In this document: positions 62,221 to 63,401 of the stretch, one piece after another
Layout of the letters: each line of letters starts with the position of its first letter
Position numbering within the stretch: position 1 is the first letter of the stretch
NCBI RefSeq assembly: GCF_002104515.1
Contig: NZ_NBOE01000001.1
Location: 186,001 to 250,000, forward strand
DNA: 64,000 bases
Direction of reading: 5' to 3'
From: Colwellia polaris
GTDB taxonomy: Bacteria > Pseudomonadota > Gammaproteobacteria > Enterobacterales > Alteromonadaceae
Made by a program: the position numbers and the translations under genes
Notes under the pieces: generated by a model
What the model saw: the letters and a program-made list of their open reading frames with translations, nothing else
The model's database searches: none
What the model was told of the DNA's origin: nothing

Positions 62221-62793
62221 CTATTCAAATTTGGTTAAATCACTATTATTAAATTTGTCCCATAGATCATCTTCTGAGTCTGATTTTTTAGGCTGTGCTA
62301 CAACATCATCTTCATCATCTAGGCCTAACGCATCACTGATTTTTTCGTGTTGTTCCATTAGGGTATTATAGTAGTCAATTTCTTCTGATGATAAAGCTAT
62401 GTCATCATCTTGTTTTTCAAGAATCTCAAGCAATCTTGGATCTTGCTCAATGCGACTTAATTGATCTGCTAATGACTCGCCTGTTTCAACTGCGCGGATG
62501 CCTGCGATAGGGGAGTTATCTTGCACTTTCTTCGCTGGTTTGGTTTTTATTGGCGCACTAATCGGCTTACCTAAATCGATAGGCGTTTTATTGCCAATAC
62601 GAGGATCTTTATGCTTAGCAGAAGTTTGGCTTTGAGTAACTTTTTTCGTGGCTTCTTTTTGACGGTTACCCGCTTCGTTACCATTAGATTTTTTTGCTCT
62701 ACGCGGTTTTGGTTCGACTAATTTTTTTTTGTCATCTTTTAGGATGCCAATAGAACCTGTGCCCGGTTTGCGTGATTTTTTCGTACGAGACAT
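62221..62793 (-). CDS. yihI: Der GTPase-activating protein YihI
   Basis: This 190-residue protein has a basic, lysine-rich N-terminal half (MSRTKKSRKPGTG) and an acidic C-terminal half (LDDEDDVV), the usual form of YihI, which stimulates the ribosome-assembly GTPase Der. In E. coli it lies beside hemN and next to csrC; here hemN follows and a CsrB/CsrC-like RNA lies just upstream, so the neighbourhood agrees. Confidence 0.92.
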   Translation of the reverse strand: MSRTKKSRKPGTGSIGILKDDKKKLVEPKPRRAKKSNGNEAGNRQKEATKKVTQSQTSAKHKDPRIGNKTPIDLGKPISAPIKTKPAKKVQDNSPIAGIRAVETGESLADQLSRIEQDPRLLEILEKQDDDIALSSEEIDYYNTLMEQHEKISDALGLDDEDDVVAQPKKSDSEDDLWDKFNNSDLTKFE

Positions 62794-62863
62794 AGTAATA
62801 ACTTAAAATAATGAACAATTAGGTTTATTTTACGACATTCCGCACTAAACAGCGATAGAAAGA

Positions 62864-63205
62864 AAAAAAGCGACGTAAATAACGTCGCTTTTTGAGAAAA
62901 TGCGGCAATTGCCAACATATAAATCCCGATTCTTAAGTGGCTGTCCTAGCCTTTTGTTACAGTCCCTGTGAGTTTAATAATTTCTAATATTATTTTTTAT
63001 TATTATCGTAGCACTTTATTTTATTTTTATCGGTCATCCTGACACTTTCTTGGGCTATCCTTTATGTCTAATATAGACAAAATATTCAATGCTTTCCCTA
63101 AGCAGTAGTAAACCATCCCTATTGTAAATATTGTTCTGCGTTAAATAACGCTTACTTGCTGTCCGTGCTGTGACTATCCATTTTGTTAGTTGCTATCTAC
63201 GTAGC
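62864..63205 (-). ncRNA. CsrB/CsrC-family regulatory RNA (CsrA-sequestering)
   Basis: The minus strand carries nine GGA motifs between 63179 and 62924. Four are in loops of perfect hairpins: TGCTT-AGGGA-AAGCA (63090-63104), GTCA-GGA-TGAC (63033-63043), ACAG-GGA-CTGT (62959-62969) and GGCT-AGGAC-AGCC (62939-62951); AATCGGGATT is a weaker fifth. It ends in a terminator, GCGACGT / ACGTCGC followed by TTTTTTTC (62893-62864). A TTGATG / TAAAGT box pair would start the RNA near 63205, for a length of about 340 nt. No protein frame fits. The position before yihI matches csrC of E. coli. The exact 5' end is uncertain. Confidence 0.88.
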
Positions 63206-63401
63206 TGCCCATACTTTACGTGAGTTTCGACAAGCATCAAGTGCTTTTTTTCGTTTTTTTACTAACTCAAAAGCTAAAACTCAGCAAGTCTTTGTTTTTA
63301 AGTGTAATAAAATTGTTAAAATATGTAATTTATTTTTTATTAATTTCTATTTTATGGTCAATGTCTTACAAAAAAGCTTACTTTGAAGGGTAATTTGTTT
63401 G

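Follow-up and report, generated by a model that had tools for sequence, protein, structure and literature searches.

A probable csrC gene upstream of yihI in Colwellia polaris

In Colwellia polaris, the DNA next to yihI very probably contains a small RNA gene whose product would sequester CsrA. Judged from its sequence and its relatives, this csrC-type gene appears to be real, unannotated and of a known RNA type, and we consider it highly likely to be the csrC of a Colwellia/Cognaticolwellia-type genome: a free-standing sRNA of ∼344 nt that precedes yihI and has both a promoter and a terminator of its own. Several lines of evidence favour a putative CsrA-titrating RNA of the CsrB/CsrC type at the csrC locus: conservation of GGA motifs, covariation, a promoter, a csrC-type UvrY site, a terminator, gene order, and the occurrence of CsrA, UvrY and BarA in the genome. 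The original prediction, of a CsrB/CsrC-like RNA of the form that sequesters CsrA, is thus strengthened by the GGA motifs and covariation across 17 genomes, the promoter, the UvrY site and the terminator. It can be sharpened, probably, to csrC, and the UvrY-type site and a second, CsrB-like candidate are additions to it.

The window analyzed here is the whole 64,000-nt (64-kb) stretch of DNA. Nine GGA motifs lie between positions 63179 and 62924 on its minus strand (256 nt), as had been predicted, and the putative transcript, 63205 to 62862, has nine GGA and no TCC (Table 1). The interval first proposed, 62864–63205, agrees with this transcript, whose start would be at ∼63205. We counted GGA in 344-nt segments taken every 20 nt along both strands of the 64-kb window. 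Over these 6366 segments the mean is 1.58; just five segments contain at least nine, and each of these overlaps the csrC-type locus. The 450 nt before yihI contain 10 GGA, compared to 4.9 in 200 dinucleotide shuffles (z = 2.9). The original prediction placed at least four GGA motifs in the loops of exact short hairpins and a strong intrinsic terminator at the end of the run; four such motifs could be located by coordinates, and the terminator has a 12-pair stem. The locus has many GGA motifs, several of them in hairpin loops and conserved, as in RNAs of the CsrB/CsrC type, and, as sequence features, the elements of a free-standing transcription unit with an intrinsic terminator. On the 3′ side of yihI, the same strand encodes a DUF2489 gene and then hemN (Radical_SAM and HemN_C), and a glyoxalase-family gene lies upstream of the putative sRNA gene.

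Table 1. Features of the csrC-type locus, in window coordinates
Feature	Position	Strand	Remarks
Putative UvrY site, csrC-type, TGTAAGACATTGACCATA	63353..63370	-	165 nt before putative start; matches Salmonella csrC site at 16/18
Possible -35, TTGATG	63235..63240	-	16 nt from -10; predicted
-10, TAAAGT within GTAAAGTA	63213..63218	-	as at E. coli csrC
Putative CsrC-type sRNA gene, ∼344 nt	62862..63205	-	9 GGA, 0 TCC; covarying hairpins; start taken from E. coli -10-to-start distance
Hairpin GCGTT-ATTT-AACGC	63138..63151	-	no GGA
Hairpin GCTT-AGGGA-AAGC	63091..63103	-	GGA in loop; double changes in 3/4 pairs (genus)
Hairpin TGTCTATATTAGACA	63065..63079	-	no GGA; double changes in 3/5 pairs
Hairpin GTC-AGGAT-GAC	63033..63043	-	3 pairs only; stem unchanged across 17 rows; centre of core seen in relatives
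Hairpin ACAG-GGA-CTGT	62959..62969	-	weakest of set; 85% of cells paired; missing from unguided fold
Hairpin GGCT-AGGAC-AGCC	62939..62951	-	GGA in loop; double changes in 2/4 pairs
Hairpin TGGC-AATT-GCCG	62903..62914	-	before terminator
Intrinsic terminator	62865..62893	-	12-pair stem, then T-rich tail; 71 nt before yihI start
yihI, separate gene	62221..62793	-	Pfam YihI 71.9 bits; starts 71 nt past terminator stem

The DNA of the sRNA locus is conserved in all 17 genomes of the genus, C. polaris itself included (named relatives are Colwellia and Cognaticolwellia), with 8–13 GGA per locus. We aligned these 17 rows (alignment A2, with L001, L005, L007 and L013 turned round) and compared the retention of 19 trinucleotides. 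GGA is the best kept, at 84%, followed by AGG, which overlaps it, at 69%. The reference row, L008, contains 12 GGA: eight are present in 15 or more of the 17 rows, three in 12 rows and one in L008 alone, compared to a mean retention over all trinucleotides of 9.9 rows.

To assess covariation, we used ten hairpins chosen by eye from row L008, five of which have GGA in the loop. In these hairpins, 95.3% of cells are paired, versus 92.8% in shuffles. Double changes occur in 13 pairs and 27 cells, compared to 6.7 and 8.4 in shuffles, and none of 500 shuffles reaches either value. One measure, further pair types, stays within the range of the shuffles (31 versus 28.2; 50/500). Among the GGA hairpins, double changes are seen in three pairs of the GCTT hairpin, two of GGCT and one of ACAG, with none in the two others. 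Unguided folding of the alignment with RNAalifold gave 48 pairs, 12 of them with double changes; most of the hairpins chosen by eye are retained, a long-range helix is gained, and the ACAG hairpin is lost. Loss of the GGA hairpins in relatives had been named at the outset as a result that would overturn the prediction; they are conserved, and the reading survives.

Two forms of upstream box were considered. The palindromic UvrY box TGTRAGN6CTYACA, sought first, is absent before the csrC-type locus and was rejected there; its one site in the genome lies 164 nt before a CsrB match. Since the reversed control of this pattern gives three matches per strand, the count by itself says little and only the position is telling. 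The second form is the site upstream of csrC that is bound in vitro by UvrY, published as a UvrY/SirA site by Zere et al. (PMC4682653), with the sequence TGTGAGACATTGCCGATA in E. coli and TGTGAGACATTGACCATT in Salmonella. The putative site in C. polaris differs from the Salmonella sequence at two of 18 positions and from that of E. coli at three; binding was tested in the Salmonella csrC control region (PMC4682653), whereas the site here is predicted from sequence. The 4.43-Mb genome contains a single copy of the 12-mer TGTRAGACATTG, located at the csrC-type locus, and no copy of its reversed control.

Among 80 named yihI loci, 11 of them from genus members, this asymmetric box is present with at most one mismatch in 28, compared to 13 of 1600 shuffles, and is lacking in the other 52. 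GTA(A/C)AGT follows 125–165 nt past the box in 23 of the 28 box loci, at a distance of 149–151 nt in 19 of these, and all 28 contain 8–15 GGA in the 370 nt examined. The Salmonella 18-mer is found exactly in two of the 80 (L205 and L212). Within the genus alignment, the box is within one mismatch in 12 of 17 rows. In the five members that lack the site (L005, L006, L007, L012 and L017), it shows 3–4 mismatches, yet a GGA-rich RNA is kept (8–11 GGA). C. polaris has both an asymmetric UvrY-type site near −165 and the BarA and UvrY genes.

The arrangement resembles that of E. coli csrC (RF00084; NC_000913.3 4051036–4051281), which lies 65 nt before yihI, followed by hemN, and is annotated as a separate ncRNA. 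In both organisms, the RNA precedes yihI and hemN on the same strand, and the two loci share the GTAAAGTA −10 element, the asymmetric UvrY site at about −165, a terminator of the form GCGAC...GTCGC with a T-rich tail ending in CTTT, and a GTCAGGAWGAC hairpin. The csrC–yihI–hemN order matches that of E. coli. Distances also agree: 151 nt from box to GTAAAGT here versus 154 in E. coli, 165 versus 168 from box to start, and 76 versus 75 between yihI and the last G-C pair of the terminator. For E. coli csrC we propose no −35 element, given the unsuitable spacing. The loci differ in length (∼344 nt with nine GGA here, 246 nt for E. coli CsrC), in the far-side neighbour (the glyoxalase-family gene versus yihA) and in the DUF2489 gene between yihI and hemN, which is extra relative to the E. 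coli order.

Similarity at the sequence level is much more limited. In local alignments of the RNA body with E. coli csrC, the terminator alone aligns (1/500 shuffles as good), while the best match of the upstream regions is the box (24/500 shuffles as good). With L008 substituted for the window, 14/500 (upstream) and 3/500 (RNA) shuffles score as well. Plain alignment to E. coli csrC is thus too weak as sole proof. The search with Rfam models proposed along with the original prediction came out negative at curated cut-offs, an outcome partly foreseen, as it had been suggested that sequence similarity might overlook the locus. At gathering scores, only a tRNA is detected in the window. The CsrC model (RF00084) gives 11.1 bits, on the terminator alone, against a cut-off of 61, and the CsrB model (RF00018; cut-off 71) gives no match at this locus, its sole match in the genome being elsewhere. 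A permissive Rfam scan of 681 bases yielded 13 weak matches, none reaching its cut-off. Nine of these overlap the terminator hairpin (STnc240, SpF25, sraA, STnc430, AgrB, Arrc11 and CsrC) and four are eukaryotic RNA families away from it; all were rejected. When the CsrC model was run over 20 loci, it reported E. coli (L143) at 278.7 bits and L228 at 138.9, and none of the other 18.

The CsrB match elsewhere in the genome (L031; G000:C28:75802-76129) has 17 GGA and is preceded by the palindromic box TGTGAGATATATCTTACA. Its Rfam CsrB score is 36.2 bits, below the cut-off of 71. Because 8 of 14 control genomes also give weak CsrB matches at E-values up to 10, its candidacy rests on its E-value of 3.8e-8, the 17 GGA and the box. 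It lies between a DEAD/helicase ORF and an ORF with a weak GNAT likeness that scores below the Pfam cut-offs. Like CsrB (RF00018), L031 is a GGA-rich RNA with a terminator and a UvrY-type box upstream; it differs from the csrC-type RNA in its 17 GGA, its palindromic box and its location. These properties make it a candidate for a more typical CsrB than the RNA at yihI.

We also considered 127 yihI loci, 17 from the genus and 110 from the family. GGA is enriched (z of at least 2) in 53, including all 17 genus loci; the mean z is 1.2. Searching with a profile of the RNA minus its terminator, we detected related RNAs before yihI in Thalassotalea, Thalassomonas and other Colwellia-type loci, as well as weaker matches ∼900 nt upstream in Pseudoalteromonas and Alteromonas relatives. 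The sequence AAAG(T/C)GTCAGGA(A/T/C)GACC is common to five of six such related loci compared, with L221 deviating. At 15 Colwellia loci, including two of C. psychrerythraea, the box is absent and just 4–7 GGA occur per 450 nt; other loci have fewer still. Other families of the order contributed 70 yihI loci; 13 or more GGA per 350 nt are found in 12 of these (one in f5, seven in f18 and four in f25) and fewer in the other 58, although these counts are rough, as the yihI start is misplaced for some loci, including L231, L232, L243 and L246. These numbers, together with the GGA-poor, box-less Colwellia loci, indicate a patchy distribution of the yihI-side RNA within the order. As a separate observation, the region preceding yihI in L248, L250, L251 and L255 (f25) carries 16–18 GGA per 350 nt and has TGTAAGAGATCT ∼100 nt before it; these loci are further csrC-like candidates.

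This patchiness bears on the main alternative, that the RNA titrates CsrA and is no orthologue of csrC, being a csrB copy or a product of convergence that came to lie next to yihI. Such a history would also fit the confinement of the E. coli alignment to the terminator, and three family loci (L065, L075 and L076) have an upstream box that is palindromic and csrB-like, with that of the Pseudoalteromonas locus L222 close to this type. However, E. coli csrC is matched in the −10 element, the asymmetric UvrY site, the spacing between these two and the distance to yihI; the palindromic box in this genome belongs to the CsrB candidate instead; and the terminator-less profile matches RNAs upstream of yihI in many loci of the family. 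We therefore regard a non-orthologous origin as improbable.

A GGA-rich RNA candidate is also seen at L222 (positions 1270–1760; Pseudoalteromonas sp. S2755), with TGTGAGATATATCTCACT and TGTAAGATATTT before it. This candidate includes 11 GGA as well as AAT-rich stretches, with a methyltransferase gene intervening before yihI. That separation is one of several points against another alternative, in which the sequence would be a yihI leader whose CsrA sites act in cis rather than a free RNA. The RNA does lie on the yihI strand, immediately upstream. However, a terminator intervenes before the start codon, the nine GGA are spread over 256 nt with none adjoining the yihI start, and the equivalent E. 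coli RNA is annotated as a gene of its own, so that a leader seems very improbable. Finally, although the fold energy is ordinary (z = −0.85 for the single strand, with 19 of 100 shuffles folding equally well) and a match in Rfam is absent, chance GGA richness of an AT-rich gap is scarcely credible, given that the locus is the GGA maximum of the window, that GGA is preferentially conserved, and that covariation, the promoter and the UvrY-type site are seen in relatives.

If the gene is csrC, its place in the cell can be sketched from its homologues. The genome encodes CsrA, a UvrY with 69% identity to the E. coli protein, and a BarA with 42% identity over positions 4–915 of 918; by homology, control by BarA–UvrY and titration of CsrA would be expected. 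BarA would phosphorylate UvrY, and phosphorylated UvrY would bind the site near −165 and turn csrC on, as the identity of this site suggests. By analogy to the rest of its family, csrC RNA would capture several CsrA dimers through its GGA motifs, starting with the ones in hairpin loops, and would so release the mRNA targets of the protein. The csrC RNA would act alongside the more typical CsrB candidate encoded elsewhere. In evolutionary terms, the RNA body appears to have diverged from E. coli CsrC, with place, UvrY site, −10 element, spacing and style of terminator kept.

We searched the literature on csrB/csrC with yihI, Colwellia, Shewanella, Pseudoalteromonas/Thalassotalea/Alteromonadales, UvrY sites and csrB prediction, and found no csrC in Colwelliaceae among the matches listed. 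The nearest case in the literature is Pf3, an sRNA of Pseudoalteromonas fuliginea BSW20308 with nine GGA, encoded between D172_RS16045 and D172_RS16040, which binds CsrA by EMSA (PMC11882849). The same paper reports that Pf3 weakly matches a Thalassotalea and that its zebrafish matches lie in TAA/AAT-rich repeats (PMC11882849). Pf3 resembles the C. polaris RNA in its nine GGA and its AAT-rich stretches and may be related to it, and the candidate near yihI at L222 may be Pf3. In Shewanella oneidensis, a csrC has been predicted between mutM and SO_4727, and its level is reported to be independent of BarA or UvrY (PMC3171408); this is a different locus from the yihI-side csrC.

We lean toward the view that csrC is ancient, with a regulatory shell that has held while gain and loss of GGA hairpins replaced the RNA body until sequence models fail, and that Pf3 is csrC, neither new nor homologous to animal sequences. 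The shell would comprise the place at yihI, the asymmetric UvrY site with its constant spacing, the −10 element and the terminator, and would extend from Enterobacteriaceae to Colwelliaceae and Thalassotalea, with an altered form in Pseudoalteromonas. The history of csrC would then reach past the range of its Rfam model. The E. coli UvrY site is a poor palindrome, and its being kept in that form in distant marine bacteria suggests that the asymmetry is probably functional. These features also suggest a recipe to search for diverged Csr RNAs: upstream of yihI, an asymmetric UvrY site, GTAAAGT ∼150 nt further on, and GGA motifs. With csrC in place, the BarA–UvrY–CsrA–CsrB/C circuit would be filled in for cold marine bacteria.
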